A stretch of 64,000 bases of DNA, taken from NCBI RefSeq assembly GCF_000214375.1, contig NC_015578.1:2108001-2172000 (forward strand). Reading direction: 5' to 3'. Made by a program: the position numbers and the translations under genes. The notes beneath the pieces are model-generated. The model was given only the letters and a program-made list of their open reading frames with translations, was not told the origin of the DNA and searched no databases. The stretch comes from Treponema primitia ZAS-2. Its GTDB lineage: Bacteria; Spirochaetota; Spirochaetia; Treponematales; Breznakiellaceae. Positions 2 through 8,156 of the stretch are shown here, piece after piece (position 1 is the first letter of the stretch; each line of letters begins with the position of its first letter).

Positions 2-499
2 GGCATAGTCGATGGCGCCTTGCCCGCTGTCCGCTATGGGGCGGAGGAGGATGGGTATGTTCTGAACCCCGGCTTCAGCGCTAACCGTAAAGGGTGTGGC
101 GATGCTCTCTCCCACCAGCTGTTCATGATCCGCGTCGAGGTAGGCCTTTGCGGTCACCGCCCAGTCCCCGGTTTCCAGGGTATACACGCCGTCCCCGTCT
201 GCTGCGGGGGTCTTGCTTTCGCCGCCCTTGGTAAAGGTATACGCCGGGAAAAGCCCCGCCGGTGCCGGCGCTGAGGGAAAGACGGTCCGCCCGGGCCCGG
301 CCTGCAGGGCCGGGGAAGAGCGGAGCGCCGGCGAGGCCTGGGCGCTGCTGCCAAAGCCCGGGGCAAAGCGCACCTGCGCCGTCCCCCCCGGGGCCTGCGG
401 CGGCGGCGACGCCGGGTTGGCGCACGAGAGGGCCAAGGCGGCCAGAAGCGCCCCAAAGGCCGGGAAAACCGGCATAAAACCTTTCACTATCTTGCTCAT
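2..499 (-). CDS. Lipoprotein, N-terminal part (runs off window)
   Basis: The frame is open from an ATG at 499 to the window edge, giving about 166 residues with no stop. The N-terminus is a lipoprotein signal: basic MSKIVKG, a hydrophobic stretch, then LALSC with Cys at residue 26. The mature part starts with a Pro/Ala/Gly-rich linker and continues with a beta-rich segment (VYTLETGDWAVTAKAY) typical of Ig-like or carboxypeptidase-regulatory-like folds; that fold is a guess from appearance. The start is supported by GGGGAAGGT just upstream. Only 9 bases separate it from the stop of the preceding lipoprotein gene, so it is the third gene of a surface-protein operon. The product is probably lipid-anchored in an outer or periplasmic membrane. 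Function unknown. Confidence 0.75.
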   Translation of the reverse strand, partial: MSKIVKGFMPVFPAFGALLAALALSCANPASPPPQAPGGTAQVRFAPGFGSSAQASPALRSSPALQAGPGRTVFPSAPAPAGLFPAYTFTKGGESKTPAADGDGVYTLETGDWAVTAKAYLDADHEQLVGESIATPFTVSAEAGVQNIPILLRPIADSGQGAIDYA

Positions 500-508
500 A
501 CCTTCCCC

Positions 509-2230
509 CTATTCCTCAACCGTAATGCTAATCGTCGTGGTATAGGGCACGCCGCCCTGCACCACCCGGAGCGTCAGCCGGTATATCCCGGTGTCCCGGC
601 CGGCGCTGTCAAAGGTATAGGACGCCCCGGTCTCCCCCTCCTGCACCACGCCGCCTATGCTCCACTGGTAGCTGTCGCCAGAGCCGCCGCCTGTCACTGT
701 AACGGGGAGGGTCTTCGCCGTGCCGCCCGCCCCGGCCCGCGAAAGGGCCGCCGTATTGCCCGGCAGGTCGGTAACGATGGCATGGTTCGCCACCCACGCG
801 GTGATTCCCGGTTTCCCGGCGGGGTATATAGTTACCGTGGTGTTTGCAATGCTCCCCGGCGCGGTGTAGTTGCCCGCCGCCGCCCCGGTCAGGGCGATAT
901 TGCTGATGGCAACGTCCTTGTCATTACCGGGGGCGGTATCCGCCATGGTCCCGGTCGCCGTGATGGTGACATCATCACTGCCCACCTTGTTTGTTGGCGT
1001 AATGGTGACAGTCACCGTTTTCGTGTCGTTATAAACCCGGTCCGTGGCCGTTGCCGTGGCGGTCAGGGGGCGCGGGACAACGGTTACCGTCAGGGCTGCG
1101 GTGGCCGCAGCCCCGCCGTCATAGCTCACGGTAATGGTCGCGGCATAGGTCCCCGCCGCAAGGCCCGCCGCAGGCTGCACGGTCCGCGTAGCAATACTGC
1201 CCCCGGCGCTCACCGCATCCCCGGAACCGCCCAGCACAAAGGCGTCCTTCCCGTCGCCGCTCAGGGCAACCGAGCTGATAGCCGCATCCGCAGTCCCGCT
1301 ATTGGTAATAGTAATAGTCTTCGCCCCAGGCCGCTCCCCGCCATAGACCGCCCCGTCAAAACTGGGGGCCGCCACCCCAAGGATGGAGGCCGGGGGCGGT
1401 ATCAGTAGCGGGTTCGGGTCCGAAACCACCGCGCCTGGAGCCAAGCCCCCGTCAGCGAGCTTGTCCAGGCCCACCAGGGTAAGGGTCCCATCATCGCCGA
1501 TGGCAAACCCCAGTTCCGCATCCCCGCCGCCGCTTCCGCCGCCGGCCACGATGATAGTATCCCCGGTAATGGTATAGGGGTACTCCCGTGGAACCCCGTC
1601 AATGACAATAGTGATCCGCCCGTCCTCGCCAAGGGTAATGCCGACCTGGGCGCTCCCGCCGCCGGCCCTGGGCGCCGTAAGGGTGATTTCCCCAGCCGCT
1701 ATCAAGGCCGCCTCGTTCTGTTCAGAGCGGTCCTTTGCGGGATTAGCCCCCGTATGCCGGGGGCTAACCGGGATATCCAGAATTGCCGAAAGGTTCCCCG
1801 CCGCGTCCGCCACCACGATATAAACCGTGTAACCAGCCCCCGCCGCAAGCCCTTCCAAAAGAATAGCGTTTATCCCCACCACCGCCGTGCCGCTCGCCCC
1901 GTCAGCTTGTATCGTCTGTGGGGAAGGTGCGCTATCAGCTTCGGGGAGTACTATGTAGTAGAAAGTCCCCCCCTCATCGGCGCTGAATTTGATGGTTGCA
2001 GTAGTTCCCGCCGCGCTGGCCTGGTCTATCGCCCGGCCACTGGGCAAACCGGGGGCCGTAGTATCCGTCACCGGATCTACCAGAGGCCCCTGGGCCCCCG
2101 GTTTCGGTTCAGTACTCCAGATATCTCGCAGTATAGGATTCCCGCACCCTGCCACGCCGAGCAGTACCAACGCCAGAAAAGGCGCCTGGCGCCATTTTGG
2201 GCGCCATTGTGCGATTTGTTTCGTTTTCAT
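509..2230 (-). CDS. Ig-like/MBG-domain lipoprotein
   Basis: 573 residues. A long basic N-region is followed by a hydrophobic stretch ending LLGVAGC, with lipobox Cys at residue 29. The mature protein begins with a proline-rich linker, then a fibronectin/Ig-like domain (residues about 60-160, ending in VADAAGN). A Gly-rich middle part follows, then an ASH-like segment around 295-390 (TITITNSGTADAAISSVAL), an MBG/YDG-type domain at about 390-470 (PRPLTATATATDRVYNDT), and a C-terminal PKD/Ig-like domain. The domain names are inferred from motif style. The ATG lies 3 bases after the stop of the OmpA-like gene, with GAGTGAG as ribosome site, so the two are coupled. Likely a surface-exposed adhesin or scaffold; no enzyme motif seen. 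Confidence 0.8.
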   Translation of the reverse strand: MKTKQIAQWRPKWRQAPFLALVLLGVAGCGNPILRDIWSTEPKPGAQGPLVDPVTDTTAPGLPSGRAIDQASAAGTTATIKFSADEGGTFYYIVLPEADSAPSPQTIQADGASGTAVVGINAILLEGLAAGAGYTVYIVVADAAGNLSAILDIPVSPRHTGANPAKDRSEQNEAALIAAGEITLTAPRAGGGSAQVGITLGEDGRITIVIDGVPREYPYTITGDTIIVAGGGSGGGDAELGFAIGDDGTLTLVGLDKLADGGLAPGAVVSDPNPLLIPPPASILGVAAPSFDGAVYGGERPGAKTITITNSGTADAAISSVALSGDGKDAFVLGGSGDAVSAGGSIATRTVQPAAGLAAGTYAATITVSYDGGAAATAALTVTVVPRPLTATATATDRVYNDTKTVTVTITPTNKVGSDDVTITATGTMADTAPGNDKDVAISNIALTGAAAGNYTAPGSIANTTVTIYPAGKPGITAWVANHAIVTDLPGNTAALSRAGAGGTAKTLPVTVTGGGSGDSYQWSIGGVVQEGETGASYTFDSAGRDTGIYRLTLRVVQGGVPYTTTISITVEE

Positions 2231-2233
2231 AAC

Positions 2234-3649
2234 TCACTCCCCCTGCAAGATAATTATGGTTACCCGGCGGTTTTTCTCCCGTCCGGCATACGTCATATTC
2301 GAATCCAAAGGCTGTTCCGCCCCCAGAGCCTGTAGTTCAATCTGGTCCCGGCGTACATATTCCCCGGCGATAAGGAAATCCGCCGCCGCCTCTGCCCGTT
2401 CCCGTGAAAGCTGCGCCCTGGCCCCCGGAGTCCCCGCCAAGGCGGTATGCCCCTGGATAACGACCCGGCTGTCCGGGAACCCCTTAAGGGTCTCCCCAAT
2501 CTCCCGCAGCCGCCCGGCAGCCCCCGGCCCCAAGCTGCTCAGATCCGCCACAAAGGGTACGGTGATACGCAGCGCAAACCCCCGTCTCCCATCCGCCAGC
2601 GCCACCGATTCCGCAATATCCTCAGACGGAACACCCGCCACATGCCGGGCCGCTTCCCGCCGCGCCGCTTCTTGCCGTTGTGCTTCCGCTTGTCGCTGTG
2701 CTTCCGCTTGTCGCTGTGCTTCCGCTTGTCGCTGTGCTTCCGCTTGTCGCTGTGTTTCCACTTGTCGCTCTGCTTCCGCTTGCTGTCGTTCAGCCTCTTG
2801 TCGCGCCGCTTCCTGCCGGGCCGCTATCTGCCGTGCAGCTTCTTGTCGAGCCGCTTCCTGCCGTGTCGTTTCTTGCCGTTGCGCTTCTTGCCGCGCCGCT
2901 TCCTGTCGAGCCGTTTCCTGCCGTTGAGCTTCTTGCCGCGCTGCTTCTTGGCGTTGCGCTTCCGTTTGCTGTACTATCTCAGCCTGTCGTTTTGTCTCAG
3001 CTTCCTGCCGGGCTGTTTCTTGTCGTTGCGCTTCCGTTTGTCGTTTTGTCTCAGCTTCCTGCCGAGCGGCTTCCTGGCGGGCCGCTTCTTGTCGCGCTGT
3101 TTCTTGGCGTGCTGCTTCTTGGCGTTGCGCTTCAGCTTGTCGCTTTGCCTCAGCCTCTTGTTGCGCCGCTTCTTGCGCCGCTTCTTGGCGTTGCACTATC
3201 TCAGCTTGTCGTTTTGCCTTAGCCTCTTGTCGAGCCGCTTTTAATTCCTCATTCTTTTTAGGCCGCCATCCCGCCGCAACACCCGCCCCGGCGATAAAAG
3301 GGTAACCCCCTCGTATCCGTGGCTCCACATACCAGCCCCCCTTGCCCAGATTTAAGCGCAGCCCCAGTTCCAGGCCGCCCATGAGCATAGTTTTCATATC
3401 GTCGCTGCCCCACATAAACGCCGCCCCACCCATACCCTGGGCAAAGAGCCCGGATAGAGGGCCGGCAGTCTTGGCAAGGGGATACCACCGGAGGAAGGCC
3501 CCCGGCTCAAAAGTGGAGTAATCGGTAAAGTCATAAAAAAAGCCCAAGGAGACCCCGGCAGCCAGGGCCGGCGAAAAGCGGTATTCTCCCGCCAGACCGG
3601 GACCAAACGCCATACCCTCCACGGAGTACCAGTTAGCCTCAAGTCCCAA
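2234..3649 (-). CDS. OmpA-family protein with long coiled-coil insert
   Basis: 471 residues from the TTG given here. The real start is uncertain. The first ~130 residues look like an outer-membrane beta-barrel (alternating aromatic strands, repeated GLELGLRLNLG-type segments). Residues about 130-335 are a highly charged helix of RQEAARQE/RQAEAQ repeats, an extended coiled coil. The C-terminus is an OmpA peptidoglycan-binding domain with LSRERAEAAADFL and a closing NRRVTIII. The frame stays open upstream of 3649 and encodes a clear signal peptide (GIFCLILLALSFPAFS before QEP), but no ATG, GTG or TTG is in frame before the poly-C tract at 3774-3788. An ATG at 3845 would join this frame only with 14 or 17 C. 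The protein probably links outer membrane and cell wall. First gene of a three-gene operon. Confidence 0.8.
   Translation of the reverse strand: MGLEANWYSVEGMAFGPGLAGEYRFSPALAAGVSLGFFYDFTDYSTFEPGAFLRWYPLAKTAGPLSGLFAQGMGGAAFMWGSDDMKTMLMGGLELGLRLNLGKGGWYVEPRIRGGYPFIAGAGVAAGWRPKKNEELKAARQEAKAKRQAEIVQRQEAAQEAAQQEAEAKRQAEAQRQEAARQETARQEAARQEAARQEAETKRQTEAQRQETARQEAETKRQAEIVQQTEAQRQEAARQEAQRQETARQEAARQEAQRQETTRQEAARQEAARQIAARQEAARQEAERQQAEAERQVETQRQAEAQRQAEAQRQAEAQRQAEAQRQEAARREAARHVAGVPSEDIAESVALADGRRGFALRITVPFVADLSSLGPGAAGRLREIGETLKGFPDSRVVIQGHTALAGTPGARAQLSRERAEAAADFLIAGEYVRRDQIELQALGAEQPLDSNMTYAGREKNRRVTIIILQGE
2680..2787 (-). repeat. 18-bp tandem repeat encoding RQAEAQ units
   Basis: On the plus strand the unit TGTGCTTCCGCTTGTCGC repeats head to tail about five to six times, four copies exact and the later ones diverged. 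It encodes RQAEAQ hexapeptides in the coiled coil of the OmpA-like protein. The unit is a multiple of three, so copy-number change would alter helix length and not the frame. Confidence 0.85.
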
Positions 3650-3751
3650 AGAAAGGCTTAAAGGGGAGCGGTCCCCGGATGGTTCCTGGGAAAAAGCTGG
3701 GAAGGAAAGGGCAAGAAGGATGAGGCAAAAAATTCCGCGATAGACCGGACT

Positions 3752-3757
3752 ATTATA
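3752..3757 (-). promoter_or_regulatory. Candidate -10 box (TATAAT) of the surface operon
   Basis: A perfect TATAAT reads on the minus strand here. Sixteen bases separate it from the poly-C run, so the -35 position falls inside or at the edge of that run and no good -35 hexamer is visible. This matches a promoter whose strength depends on tract length, but it is also compatible with a chance TATAAT inside a coding leader. Confidence 0.45.
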
Positions 3758-3773
3758 TCCTAGTAAACCTATC

Positions 3774-3788
3774 GGGGGGGGGGGGGGG
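3774..3788. repeat. Poly-G/poly-C tract of 15 bases
   Basis: Fifteen consecutive G on the plus strand (C on the strand of the OmpA-like gene). It is the only such long homopolymer in the window and sits directly upstream of a surface-protein operon. Such tracts change length by slipped-strand mispairing. Confidence 0.95.
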
Positions 3789-3939
3789 TACTAATTCGTT
3801 GCTATATAAATAATTATGTCCATTTATCGGCACAAAATACCTCATTTTACTAGAATCCATAAAGAGTATACACCCATTTCTTATAAAATCCCATAAAAAA
3901 TATACCTTTTTTTGTAATAAAAGGCAAAAACGGCAAAAA

Positions 3940-3952
3940 GGTGACTGTCACC
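3940..3952 (+). repeat. REP-like palindrome, copy 1
   Basis: GGTGACTGTCACC. In this copy the flanks extend the symmetry: GGCAAAA lies before it and TTTTGCC after it, giving a 30-bp imperfect inverted repeat (3932-3961). It lies about 155 bases before the RAYT start. Confidence 0.9.
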
Positions 3953-4004
3953 ACTTTTGCCTAGTGTCGCCGGTGCCCAAAAAAAAGGTGACAAAAAGGA
4001 AAAA

Positions 4005-4017
4005 GGTGACTGTCACC
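4005..4017 (+). repeat. REP-like palindrome, copy 2
   Basis: GGTGACTGTCACC, preceded by an A-rich flank and a half-copy (AAGGTGACAAAAAGG at 3986-4000). Second of three copies upstream of the RAYT gene. Confidence 0.9.
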
Positions 4018-4078
4018 ATAAAGCAAAAAACAGGGCTGCCCCATATAGCTATCAAACGGTGTCATCAAAAAGCAAAAA

Positions 4079-4091
4079 GGTGACTGTCACC
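4079..4091 (+). repeat. REP-like palindrome, copy 3
   Basis: GGTGACTGTCACC, ending 14 bases before the RAYT start codon and only 5 bases before its ribosome site GGAGG. A hairpin here in the mRNA could affect RAYT translation. Confidence 0.9.
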
Positions 4092-4105
4092 GATTTGGAG
4101 GTTGT

Positions 4106-4621
4106 ATGCGGAAGAAACGGGTGTTTGAGGAAGGGGCGGTTTATCATGTTACGTCCAGGACGAACAATAAGCGGCTGCTGTTTGGGGATAGGTTAGGGAA
4201 GAAGATTATGCTCCTGACCCTGCGGAATGCGAAAGAACGGTACGGGTTTGGGCTGTTTAACTTTTGCATTATGCCGAACCATGTTCATTTGCTTATTCGG
4301 CCTGGGGATGGCGATCTTTCCCGGATCATGCAATGGATTAAGACCGGTTCGGCTAAGTGGTATAACCATATCCGGGGTACTTCCAACCATGTCTGGGGCG
4401 AGCGGTTTTTTGCGCGGGCGGTTCGGTCCCCGGAGGATTATATCACGGTTATGGGCTATATCGACCGGAACCCGGTAAAAGCGGGACTTGCCCCCGCTGT
4501 GGGGGATTGGCAGGAGTCGGGGGCCTACCATATCCAGCGCCGACTTACAGGGCTTGTGGACTATGATGAGTTTACGGAACAGCTCTATACCCCTCAGCGG
4601 CTGCTACTCGGTGAAAGGTGA
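4106..4621 (+). CDS. REP-associated tyrosine transposase (RAYT, IS200-like Y1 family)
   Basis: 171 residues, complete for this family. The HUH metal-binding motif is in MPNHVHLLI (His59, His61). The catalytic Tyr is most likely Tyr118 in GYIDRNPVKAGL, the family's conserved helix. RAYTs are single-copy domesticated relatives of IS200/IS605 transposases that nick single-stranded REP hairpins. The context fits closely: three copies of GGTGACTGTCACC lie upstream, and two more start at the gene's end, where the TGA stop is itself part of copy 4. The ribosome site is GGAGG at 4097-4101. It could have moved in with the prophage next door, but the repeats also occur outside the prophage, which favours a chromosomal RAYT-REP system. 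Confidence 0.9.
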   Translation: MRKKRVFEEGAVYHVTSRTNNKRLLFGDRLGKKIMLLTLRNAKERYGFGLFNFCIMPNHVHLLIRPGDGDLSRIMQWIKTGSAKWYNHIRGTSNHVWGERFFARAVRSPEDYITVMGYIDRNPVKAGLAPAVGDWQESGAYHIQRRLTGLVDYDEFTEQLYTPQRLLLGER

Positions 4622-4629
4622 CTGTCACC
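4617..4629 (+). repeat. REP-like palindrome, copy 4 (overlaps RAYT stop)
   Basis: GGTGACTGTCACC. Bases 4619-4621 are the RAYT stop codon TGA. Flanked by AAA and TTTT. Confidence 0.9.
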
Positions 4630-4640
4630 TTTTAGAGATC

Positions 4641-4653
4641 GGTGACTGTCACC
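4641..4653 (+). repeat. REP-like palindrome, copy 5
   Basis: GGTGACTGTCACC followed by ACTTTTGCC, the same right flank as copy 1. Copies 4 and 5 form a pair 11 bases apart, like a BIME behind the RAYT gene. Confidence 0.9.
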
Positions 4654-4666
4654 ACTTTTGCCGGAT

Positions 4667-4680
4667 AGGGCGGCGGCCCT
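4667..4680. promoter_or_regulatory. Left copy of a duplicated prophage hairpin motif
   Basis: AGGGC..GCCCT inverted repeat followed at once by ATGTTTCGGCCTGAAA. An almost identical block is at 16656-16687, at the head of the HTH-terminase module. Each copy sits just before the first gene of a phage transcription block, so a shared regulatory site is likely. Confidence 0.5.
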
Positions 4681-4720
4681 ATGTTTCGGCCTGAAATTTC
4701 GGGCGTATTCTTTCTGCACT

Positions 4721-5329
4721 ATGGGTATTACACCAAAACAAGAACGGCTCTTTTCTCTGGTCCCTCTGGGGGACTTTAAGGCTTTGCTCGGCATTGATGA
4801 CCGGGAGGATGCCTTGGCCCGGTACTGTCTGGTAACGGCTTCCTACACCATCGAGGAATACTGCCGGAGGCGGCTGCTGTGCAGGAAACGGACAGAATTT
4901 CTGCACTATTCGGGCGACCCGGTTATCCCTCTGGGGGATTATCCGGTCAGGAAGATTTTGGCGGTATACAAAATAGGCCGCCAAGGGGAAGAGCCGATCC
5001 TGCCGGGCCTATACCGTACTGTCCCGGAATGCGGGCCGGAGGATATCCCGTTTTGCCTTTCAGTGGACCCGGCTGCCGGGCTGGAACGGCGGGTTGTAGC
5101 GATAAGGGCGCTGTATCTGGCGGGGTATAGGCAGGGTGAAGTCCCCGCTGACTTGGCTTCGGCGTGCCTGGAGCTGGCGGCGTGGAATATGAGCCGCTTC
5201 CGGGGAAAGCGCATTGGGATGGCTGGGGCGGCGGTGCGGGGGAAGGCGGGGGTCGGGGAATACCTGGAGGCTTCAATGCCGGAGAACGTGAAGGCGCTGC
5301 TGGAACCGTACAGGCGGCGGATGCTGTAA
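4721..5329 (+). CDS. Phage head-tail connector protein (gp6-like)
   Basis: 202 residues from the ATG at 4721. A longer frame from a TTG at 4658 reads through the hairpin motif and is unlikely. The pattern is that of HK97 gp6/YqbG-type DNA-packaging connectors: an N-terminal helical part (DFKALLGIDDREDALARYCLVTASYTIEEYCRR, written here only as a pattern of helices), a middle beta part beginning YPVRKI, and a C-terminal helix with LASACLELAAWN. In the virion this protein forms a ring below the portal. It opens the left transcription block, right behind the duplicated hairpin motif. There is no strong ribosome site at 4721, so the start is less certain than the gene. Confidence 0.7.
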   Translation: MGITPKQERLFSLVPLGDFKALLGIDDREDALARYCLVTASYTIEEYCRRRLLCRKRTEFLHYSGDPVIPLGDYPVRKILAVYKIGRQGEEPILPGLYRTVPECGPEDIPFCLSVDPAAGLERRVVAIRALYLAGYRQGEVPADLASACLELAAWNMSRFRGKRIGMAGAAVRGKAGVGEYLEASMPENVKALLEPYRRRML

Positions 5330-5332
5330 AAA

Positions 5333-5345
5333 GGTGACTGTCACC
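5333..5345 (+). repeat. REP-like palindrome, copy 6 (inside prophage)
   Basis: GGTGACTGTCACC between the connector stop and the next ribosome site. This copy is inside the prophage operon. Confidence 0.9.
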
Positions 5346-5360
5346 TTTTAGGGAGGGGGG

Positions 5361-5807
5361 ATGGATTACACAGAAGATACTATCTTGCGGGGCGTTAAGA
5401 GGGTTCTGGCGGGGGCGGTTAATGAGTTGCTGGATGAGGAGCAAGACAATATCCCCCGGATTGAATTTCCCGGCCCTGTGGATGGGTATCTGGCTTTGAG
5501 CCGATTGAGCGGGAGTGTATGCCCGGATATTAGTCTGCTGGGCGGGGAGCGGACGGAAAAGGACCGGATTATTGGGCTTGAGGTGTTTGATCTGGCCATT
5601 ACTTTTTTTGTTCCCGAACTTGATGGCGAGCAGAATTGTTATGCCTATGCTGCTGCGGTGACTGGGGCACTGGAAGATGATCCTACCCTGGGGGGCGTGG
5701 CTGACCGGGCGGTGGTGGTTAAGAAAAAGTATACGCCACCCAGAACGGGGATTTTTGTGGATGGGTGGGAAGCGGTTCTGACGGTGCGGGTTTTTGTTGA
5801 GAAGTGA
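5361..5807 (+). CDS. Phage tail-terminator-like protein
   Basis: 148 residues. Start ATG follows GGGAGGGG. The size, the position after the connector, and the pattern DDPTLGG followed by a hydrophobic strand and GWEAVLTVRVFVEK fit tail-terminator/tail-completion proteins, which cap the tail tube and join it to the head. This is a family-style match with no catalytic motif to confirm it. The next gene begins 6 bases downstream, so the genes are co-transcribed. A REP-like palindrome lies just before its ribosome site. Confidence 0.55.
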   Translation: MDYTEDTILRGVKRVLAGAVNELLDEEQDNIPRIEFPGPVDGYLALSRLSGSVCPDISLLGGERTEKDRIIGLEVFDLAITFFVPELDGEQNCYAYAAAVTGALEDDPTLGGVADRAVVVKKKYTPPRTGIFVDGWEAVLTVRVFVEK

Positions 5808-5813
5808 GGGAGT

Positions 5814-6665
5814 ATGGTCAACGGAAGGGACTGCGTTATCGCTATCGGAACGGTGCCTGTCCCCTATGCGGAGGAAACGATCCGGGAGGCGGTGGCGGCG
5901 CTGATTGAACAGGCTTCTATCGAAGGGGACGGGGTGTGCCGGGGGATACAGAAAAACTGCGGGGTTACGGGGTGTATTGTTACGCCGCTGACTATTGGGA
6001 CTGCTCCCCTGCTTTTGGGCCTAGCCCTGGGGGAAGCGGGCATTCCGGTGTTTGTGAGCGAGACCCGGAATCTGTATCGGCGGGAACTGCGGCTGGTTCC
6101 TTACGAAGACGGCGAGCGTTTTGAACTGTGCCAGGAACGGGGGGAGCGTGGCAAACGCTTTGAGGCTTGCGGGGTATCGGGGTTTGAACTGCGTATCCAT
6201 CAGGGTGAGGCAGTAAAACTGCGCCTTGATATTGCCGGGGAGCATGGGGGAGCGCCCTACCCGTCTGAGGGGGGCAGGGAATTTGCCACCGGGGAACGGT
6301 TCAAGGAAAACGGCGTGAGCTATACGGTGAATGGGCGTGAGCTGCGGGAGATCTACGGGCTGACTATTGCGGCCAAAAAGATAGGGGGGACGAAAACGGA
6401 GGTTTGGATTCACCGGGTATTGGAAGAATCGGCTGATATCCCTCAGGCGATAGAAAAGCTGGAAGTTACGGCGCGGCTGTACCGGGATAGGTATGAACAG
6501 GGGAACCAAGGTTCTGGGAACCTTGGGCTGTTCCGGCTTAGGCTTTCCCGGCTGGTGATGATGTCTGATGAAACGGCGGTAGACGCCGCTGATGCGGTTA
6601 TCGGCCCCTTGCGGTATTACTGTGCCGGGGATTTCACGGCTGAAGTTTTTTCAGAAGGGAATTAG
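5814..6665 (+). CDS. Probable phage tail tube/major tail protein
   Basis: 283 residues, beta-rich, with no membrane segment or signal. Position between a tail-terminator-like gene and a tail-hub-like gene argues for a major tail (tube) protein. Internal patterns (GVTGCIVTPLTIGTAP, ending in an ...AGDFTAEVF strand) are compatible but not diagnostic. Start ATG lies 6 bases after the previous stop with GAGGGAG as ribosome site. No tail-assembly chaperone pair follows, as it would in most siphophages. It could alternatively be another structural tail component. Confidence 0.5.
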   Translation: MVNGRDCVIAIGTVPVPYAEETIREAVAALIEQASIEGDGVCRGIQKNCGVTGCIVTPLTIGTAPLLLGLALGEAGIPVFVSETRNLYRRELRLVPYEDGERFELCQERGERGKRFEACGVSGFELRIHQGEAVKLRLDIAGEHGGAPYPSEGGREFATGERFKENGVSYTVNGRELREIYGLTIAAKKIGGTKTEVWIHRVLEESADIPQAIEKLEVTARLYRDRYEQGNQGSGNLGLFRLRLSRLVMMSDETAVDAADAVIGPLRYYCAGDFTAEVFSEGN

Positions 6666-6668
6666 AAA

Positions 6669-8156
6669 ATGAGGTTTTATGCCATTGACGATTCTCTGAA
6701 AGAGGCGATTGACAAGGGGACAGCGGCAGTAAAGGTGCGGGTTGAAATAGAACGGGGCGGACATTTTGAGGCGGTTTTTGAGCGGGACATTATTGAAGCG
6801 TCATTCTATGGGCTGAAAGAAGTTGCGGGTGGGACTTCCGCCCGTGGGGAGGTTTTGCTGGATAATCCTAAGGGGATGTATTCAGCGGAGAACGGGGCGG
6901 GGCGGGAAGTGCGGGTTAGTTTTTCTATTGGAGAGGGGCTGCCCTGGTTTCAGCGGTTTACGTTTTTTGTGGATGGCAAGGGGTTTCAGGACATCCGGGG
7001 GCCGGGGCGGGTGCGGCGGGTACTGCTGGGGCTGCGTGACCGTTCGGCGTTTTTGCGGCGGACTGATGAGAGCCGGGACTGGACACAGCCTGCGGTTTTT
7101 ACCTACTCGGTTATCTGCGATAAGACGCAGCCGGAGAAATCCCTGGTTCACCGGATTGCGAAGCGGGCCGGACTGGCGGTGCAGGATATTGACTGCGCCA
7201 CTATCCCTGTCACGCTGCCCTACGTGAAGCTGACGAAGAATACCTGGGCTGAGCTTTCGGCCCTGGCAACGGCGTACCGCTGCCACCTGGAATGCCCGGT
7301 AGAAAAGCCCCTGGTCTTTGCCCATTCGCCTTACCAGGATGAGCCTCTATCTGCCGACGATGAAAATCCTTCCTACACCTTCACCGGGGTCGATATTTTT
7401 TACTTGCGGGTTACCGAGCGTGCGGACCAGTACCGGAATACGGTGCGGCTTAAAATCAATATTCCGGTAGCTTTGGAAAAACAGGAAATCTGGCGCTATG
7501 AGGATCCGCCTGTTCTGTATGATTCGAGCCTTGCCCCGGTGTACCCCTTCCGGGGTTCCGCTTTGCGGGATATTGAGCAGTACGATTATGAAGCGCTCTA
7601 CACAGTCAAGGATAGTAAGGGGGCGGAACGGCGGGTTATTTTTGCCGACCAGATAGACACCATAGAAGAAGCGCAAGAGCGCTTGAGCTATGAGGGCGGG
7701 CCGTTTGTATACTCCGCTTATGACACTACTACCCACCATGACAAGGCGATTATTACCCTGGGCTCTGACAATGATGGGGATTTGTTTAAGGCGTCCATTT
7801 TTGGGCGGCCTATTGTCCTTGATGTTAATAGGTCTGCGTTTTTGCGGGATAGCAATGCGGTGACCCTGCATGGGACTTGTGCGCTGAACGTTACGGGCTC
7901 CTATTTTTCGGAGGATGTGTTCAATGGGCGCCCTCAATACGAGGACTGGACAGCGCAGGAATTGGCAGAGAGGTTACAGGAGCGGCGGGAAATTACGGTG
8001 AAAACCCACCGGGCTTTGTTCCATGGGCGGGTCGGGGCACGGGTGAAGATCGAGACCAGGGACGGAACTGCCAAGGGCACGGTTAATGCCTTTTCTCTGC
8101 GGTATAAACGTGACGCCGCTTTTGTAGCGGCGTTTAAGGTGACTGTCACCACATAG
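6669..8156 (+). CDS. Phage tail hub/tip protein
   Basis: 495 residues, soluble, mixed beta structure. The C-terminus (RVGARVKIETRDGTAKGTV followed by strands) resembles the beta-domains of phage baseplate-hub and tail-tip proteins, and it ends directly upstream of the lysis cassette, where tail tips usually sit. Start ATG lies 3 bases after the preceding stop. The last codons (V-T-V-T-T) are supplied by a REP-like palindrome at 8138-8150, so the protein's end has absorbed a repeat copy. No tape-measure gene lies between this gene and the tail-tube-like gene. Exact role inferred from position. Confidence 0.5.
   Translation: MRFYAIDDSLKEAIDKGTAAVKVRVEIERGGHFEAVFERDIIEASFYGLKEVAGGTSARGEVLLDNPKGMYSAENGAGREVRVSFSIGEGLPWFQRFTFFVDGKGFQDIRGPGRVRRVLLGLRDRSAFLRRTDESRDWTQPAVFTYSVICDKTQPEKSLVHRIAKRAGLAVQDIDCATIPVTLPYVKLTKNTWAELSALATAYRCHLECPVEKPLVFAHSPYQDEPLSADDENPSYTFTGVDIFYLRVTERADQYRNTVRLKINIPVALEKQEIWRYEDPPVLYDSSLAPVYPFRGSALRDIEQYDYEALYTVKDSKGAERRVIFADQIDTIEEAQERLSYEGGPFVYSAYDTTTHHDKAIITLGSDNDGDLFKASIFGRPIVLDVNRSAFLRDSNAVTLHGTCALNVTGSYFSEDVFNGRPQYEDWTAQELAERLQERREITVKTHRALFHGRVGARVKIETRDGTAKGTVNAFSLRYKRDAAFVAAFKVTVTT
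8138..8150 (+). repeat. REP-like palindrome, copy 7 (within a coding end)
   Basis: GGTGACTGTCACC occupies the last sense codons of the tail hub gene, just before its TAG and the AGGAGG of the next gene. Confidence 0.9.

Follow-up and report, generated by a model that had tools for sequence, protein, structure and literature searches.

A cytosine tract ahead of an OmpA-like gene in Treponema primitia: a probable translational phase-variation switch belonging to a dispersed spirochaetal element

The tract of 15 G at positions 3774-3788 of the window, a stretch of 64,000 nucleotides from the genome of Treponema primitia ZAS-2 (which we take to be a termite-gut spirochaete), reads as C15 on the coding (reverse) strand of an OmpA-like gene, and its sequence context points, with a probability of about 0.74, to a translational phase-variation switch that is off in the deposited sequence. 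The frame opened by a GTG at 3833 crosses the C tract and continues into the signal peptide of the gene only when the tract contains 14 or 17 residues (n = 2 mod 3), and at the deposited length it closes after 26 codons. Under the switch reading, slipped-strand changes in the tract would make cells of the population gain or lose expression of an OmpA/OprF-type protein and, through polarity, the two downstream genes would probably be switched as well. The tract is itself one copy of a dispersed element, composed of a C(n) tract and a conserved 20-mer with TAG in one of the off frames, and the distribution of its copies suggests repeated insertion of the element among these spirochaetes, for the most part ahead of exported proteins.

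The tract is present at the position and length that the preliminary description of this DNA had given, and it lies far above chance expectation: for a genome of 4.06 Mb with balanced composition, simple arithmetic yields about 0.01 G/C runs of at least 15, as against 12 seen. The OmpA-like frame has an in-frame stop at 3793, and its next ATG, GTG or TTG is a TTG at 3649, beyond the signal peptide, which bears out the claim that this frame has no start codon before the tract. ATG 3860, ATG 3845 and GTG 3833 share one common frame, and a frame table covering C10 to C20 shows it meeting the OmpA frame at C11, C14, C17 and C20, and not at C10, 12, 13, 15, 16, 18 or 19; the arithmetic put forward earlier for ATG 3845 (joined to the OmpA frame with 14 or 17 C, not with 15) is hence correct. 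At the deposited C15, the product from the GTG is 26 aa long and terminates at TAA 3755-3753. The locus has the form of a phase-variable one, in which a homopolymer sits between the likely start and the body of the open reading frame, and its length decides the frame. The conserved block that follows the tract (GATAGGTTTACTAGGATATAA, 3753-3773, reverse strand) holds stops in both off frames, TAA 3755-3753 at C15 and TAG 3771-3769 at C16, and is open in the on frame, where it reads IGLLGY. On the upstream half, TTATATAGCAACGAATTAG (3791-3809, reverse strand) codes for LYSNEL and resembles an AT-rich, NSLYYNEL-coding motif found ahead of other tracts. The on-state n-region ahead of the hydrophobic core would be unusually long (about 33 aa), and the deposited tract is a single nucleotide away from an on length, a difference that a fixed mutation or a sequencing error could also explain.

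The genome has another operon of this kind (L050), which encodes a paralogue that is 84% identical in amino acid sequence across the N-terminal domain and from which the tract is absent. Aligned to the window, this operon keeps both GAGGTATTTTGTG and a -10-like TATACT (3865-3870, reverse strand), a candidate -10 element that the promoter scan missed, its own proposal being 3927-3899. Also kept is GAGG-N6-GTG, which in the window comprises the GTG at 3831-3833 and, 6 nt ahead of it, the Shine-Dalgarno-like GAGG at 3840-3843 (both on the reverse strand), and in the paralogue this GTG is open in frame into the signal peptide. ATG 3845 of the window is ACG in the tract-less operon. Relative to the paralogue, the window carries a net insertion that shifts the GTG out of the OmpA frame at C15, whereas at C14 the two frames coincide. 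Given its conservation, the in-frame run into the signal peptide of the paralogue and the restoration of the frame at C14, GTG 3833 is the likely start, with support from one paralogue and a four-base Shine-Dalgarno match. The frame model of the preliminary description, arithmetic included, was right in substance, but it began at ATG 3845, for which the conserved GTG is the likelier candidate. The difference may reflect gain of the cassette in the window or its loss from the paralogue, whose initial residues are similar to those of a further tract locus (MSVNTRNY at 1565052).

The existence of a tract-less paralogue also speaks for a frozen remnant, that is, for an element that inserted or slipped once and left the gene simply off, with the paralogous operon doing the work. 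The deposited length is indeed an off length, but the OmpA frame runs uninterrupted over 518 aa, with 0 internal stops, and tract lengths differ among paralogues elsewhere, and we consider this explanation unlikely. Even less probable is a role in promoter spacing, with the tract at the -35 position and TATAAT 3757-3752 as the -10, as in T. pallidum. The hexamer does lie where the preliminary description had located it, 16 bases beyond the tract, and poly-G within promoters changes the transcription of the T. pallidum tpr genes and TP0126, according to PMC7864442. TATAAT belongs, however, to the repeated block and occurs in only 3 of 54 copies of the element, the scan detects no sigma-70-like pair at this site, and the paralogue, which lacks the TATAAT stretch, still keeps the upstream start. 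Moreover, there is no ATG, GTG or TTG from 3753 to the signal peptide, so that a transcript starting from this promoter would be without an ordinary start codon. The rarity of the hexamer and the want of a start codon tell against the promoter model proposed earlier, and the T. pallidum mechanism is probably not that of the window tract. The systems are alike in the type of repeat and of gene, a poly-G close to an outer-membrane protein gene in a treponeme, but not in mechanism: in T. pallidum the tract lies within the promoter and acts at that level (PMC7864442), whereas the window tract follows the likely start codon and precedes the signal peptide.

The presumed target of the switch (body at 2234-3772, reverse strand, with its stop at 2236-2234; 532 aa from the GTG at C14) encodes an OmpA/OprF-type outer-membrane protein, as judged by a match to the OmpA C-terminal domain and a predicted eight-stranded barrel. 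It is made up of a signal peptide (approximately 3740-3688), an eight-strand barrel, a Q/A/E/R-rich region and the C-terminal domain, which matches OmpA (PF00691 in Pfam) with an E-value of 4.1e-15. Given seven aligned homologues, AlphaFold modelled the N-terminal domain as an eight-stranded barrel (mean pLDDT 90.2), and the nearest PDB barrels found by Foldseek are OprF (4rlc, E 6.9e-6) and OmpA (1qjp, E 1.9e-5). The window protein thus resembles OmpA/OprF proteins in both domains and differs from them in the long Q/A/E/R-rich region that separates the two. Two genes are closely spaced after it on the same (reverse) strand and complete a putative operon: a gene of 573 aa with a YDG domain (509-2230), and a third with a lipoprotein-like start that runs off the window (2-499). 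The other flank holds an IS200-like transposase gene (4106-4621), presumably of the RAYT type, and phage connector and tail-terminator genes (4658-5807) that adjoin the operon; a copy of the same connector gene also adjoins the paralogous operon. The window contains 9 instances of the palindrome GGTGACTGTCACC (1004-8150 and 45924), mostly around the transposase gene, as against 0 in shuffles, while the paralogous operon has GGTGCCAGGCACC beside its own transposase copy, as if there were one palindrome per transposase. A search of positions 3200-4700 against Rfam returned a sole match far under its gathering score, and hence no known RNA family.

With the barrel alignment as query, 64 of 118 genomes gave matches, and most homologues open with an ordinary signal peptide. 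Of the 26 usable loci, 3, the window locus included, have a C tract of at least 7 residues within 260 nt upstream (30 loci were read, and L222, L231, L232 and L234 were excluded); three further homologues with a tract (L103, L106 and L197) fall outside this count. Conservation of the tract across all barrel homologues is thereby ruled out, and its sporadic occurrence suggests that it has often been acquired or lost.

The tract had been treated as a single locus; it is instead one copy of a dispersed and conserved element. The T. primitia genome (4,059,867 bp) contains 41 G/C runs of at least 9 residues, 14 of which reach at least 12, and the flanks of several of these tracts carry the same block after the tract, giving the pattern TA-C(n)-GATAGGTTTACTAGGA(AT/TA)TA. 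The pattern of the 20-base block has 13 matches in this genome at up to 3 mismatches, as against 0 in the reversed control, and at least 5 C precede 10 of the 13, either directly or within a few bases. A sequence model built from 11 copies yields matches in 80 of 118 family genomes at E <= 0.5, many of them at chance level, and in 25 of 118, the T. primitia genome among them, at 1e-3, these E-values being rough. The exact pattern CCCCCGATRGRTTTACYAGGAWWT is found 35 times in 13 of 195 family genomes, representing 11 of 56 genera (reversed control, 0). All 34 exact matches in the GTDB collection fall in records of Treponema, Spirochaetales, Spirochaetaceae or Spirochaetia, most of which we take to be termite-gut metagenome-assembled genomes (MAGs). 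A phage origin of the element was rejected on the basis of 0 exact matches in IMG/VR.

Across 54 distinct copies, the tract varies from 5 to 22 C and the next 20 bases are nearly fixed, with variable flanks on both sides except for a TA before the tract (32 of 52) and a TA ending the block (49 of 54). The block is translated in different frames, as IGLLG(Y/N) in the window and L114 and as DRFTRNYR in L137 and L153, and its conservation is therefore not for the sake of one peptide. It places a TAG directly after the tract in one frame, and the usual form of the block in the T. primitia genome has a TAA at its end in another. A near-perfect palindrome, TAATTCCTT-ATATAGC-AAGGAATTA or a close variant, precedes the tract in L116, L123, L140 and L167. 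The T. primitia genome has related AT-rich palindromes at other sites that lack a tract.

The preference of the element for exported proteins emerges from a comparison of the two orientations: the 420 nt downstream contain a signal-peptide-like sequence, with an open frame after it, in 26 of 45 sense cases vs 3 of 34 antisense ones (Fisher 4.7e-6), the loci being too short for the test in 9 of 54 and 20 of 54 cases, respectively. Random positions in the same loci gave 216 of 2120. The detector is a simple rule set of our own, not SignalP, for which a few of the 26 positives are doubtful and by which at least one lipoprotein (L164) is missed. Where the element is fused to the gene, the deposited length is an on length in 3 loci and an off length in 8 (11 resolved of 13 tried), a count that leaves out L110 and L103 and in which an internal TTG serves as the start for L075. 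In L207 the element lies at the start of a presumably glycosyltransferase-like gene and is out of frame at the deposited length.

Tract length differs between paralogues with similar flanks in three pairs: C8 and C16 (213 of 221 bases identical), C14 and C20 (247 of 260) and C14 and C19 (72 of 84); in two other pairs the tracts are equal, at 12/12 and 15/15. These differences concern loci other than the window copy and lie between copies only, and as such they provide the best available indication that the tracts may be unstable. Slimmer odds than to promoter spacing are given to slippage of RNA polymerase or ribosome on C15, which would maintain a constant mixture of in-frame and out-of-frame products at any genomic length; long homopolymers are known slippage sites (general knowledge), but the off-frame stops would still lower output. 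Least probable of all is an assembly error concealing a true tract of C14 or C17 and a gene that is constitutively on. Homopolymers of this length (15) do invite errors, and a single base flips the verdict, but tract lengths vary widely within the same genome, near-identical paralogues differ by 6 to 8 bases, and 8 of the 11 resolved fused loci are off.

A translational switch of the kind favoured for the window is one of several settings in which copies of the element are found. In a leader group, the tract lies within a short open reading frame, and a hairpin with a T run separates this frame from a gene for an exported protein, as in L111, L141, L166 and two paired lipoprotein loci (577623 and 906032). 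A terminator-like hairpin comes after the element in 19 of 49 copies, vs 6 of 49 shuffled and 7 of 49 on the reverse strand. In all of 15 leader loci one frame or more continues beyond the hairpin, and there is always one that ends at the tract or shortly past it, although these loci were hand-picked after the hairpins had been seen and the 15 of 15 is therefore a biased count. The mean length of the longest open frame downstream is 204 nt vs 129 nt in shuffled sequence (37 copies, with fused loci excluded and in-gene copies still included; Wilcoxon p = 1e-6). In the pil1 system of S. gallolyticus (PMC3894217), a change in repeat number lengthens a leader peptide and the ribosome blocks formation of a terminator. 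The leader-type copies resemble pil1 and pil3 in having a repeat-containing leader frame, a terminator-like hairpin, an exported-protein gene and one frame that runs beyond the hairpin, and translation in the right frame may similarly run over the hairpin at these loci. They differ in the repeat, which is GCAGA in pil1/pil3 and a mononucleotide C tract in the element. The attenuator layout of pil1 does not apply to the window copy, where no terminator hairpin lies between tract and gene.

Other copies lie inside genes. Translated from its opposite strand, the element gives (I/Y)PSKPI-GGGG, and copies are found in frame within the long open reading frames of L108 and L157, and with the frame broken in L142 and L170 (near a contig end). 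The L142 gene, which we take to be cytosine permease-like, and the L157 gene have homologues without the element segment; loop length differs there, which leaves any exact empty site putative. In L142 there is a TA on both sides of the insert and the flanking frame agrees once the insert is removed, and in-gene copies such as this favour insertion as the mode of spread. A clean inverted-repeat structure, of the sort seen in MITE-like mobile elements, is weak, terminal inverted repeats reaching at least 10 of 12 in 4 of 50 copies (shuffled fraction, 0.005). As a tentative and rather less than even proposition, the element could be a mobile homopolymer cassette, TA-C(n)-GATAGGTTTACTAGGAATTA, that inserts at TA sites in termite-gut spirochaetes and makes the entered gene phase-variable, either by frame, when it lies between start codon and signal peptide or within the gene, or by ribosome-dependent attenuation, when it lies in a leader before a terminator.

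Contingency loci of the Neisseria, Campylobacter and Helicobacter type have a homopolymer in the 5' coding region, and the window locus resembles them in its long G/C tract early in a surface-protein reading frame and in a frame set by length modulo 3. Unlike them, it couples the tract to a conserved 20-mer that is repeated across unrelated genes and genera and supplies an off-frame stop. The locus would hence go beyond an ordinary contingency locus, as a repeated module with its own off-frame stop that is common to several genera. Homopolymer phase variation is usually described one gene at a time, and the spirochaete family carrying the element is dominated by termite-gut symbionts. Searches of the open-licence PMC literature yielded no account of this element or of phase variation in termite-gut treponemes, and the main text of PMC13067680 on the family, in the part available, mentions neither phase variation nor homopolymers. 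That a single short and conserved module, complete with an off-frame stop, recurs ahead of unrelated exported proteins across 11 of 56 genera suggests that phase-variable control may spread as a ready-made part, and that surface variation may matter to harmless symbionts as it does to pathogens.

Contigs of MAGs often stop near the element (L137, L144, L146, L149 and L150), as if assembly broke there. The T. primitia genome also contains a C20/C17 pair at G000:C1:253559 and 427767, with related flanks (221 of 258 bases downstream) and without the usual 20-mer, and two much longer homopolymers, a C61 at G000:C1:279759-279819 and a G40 at 2822045-2822084.
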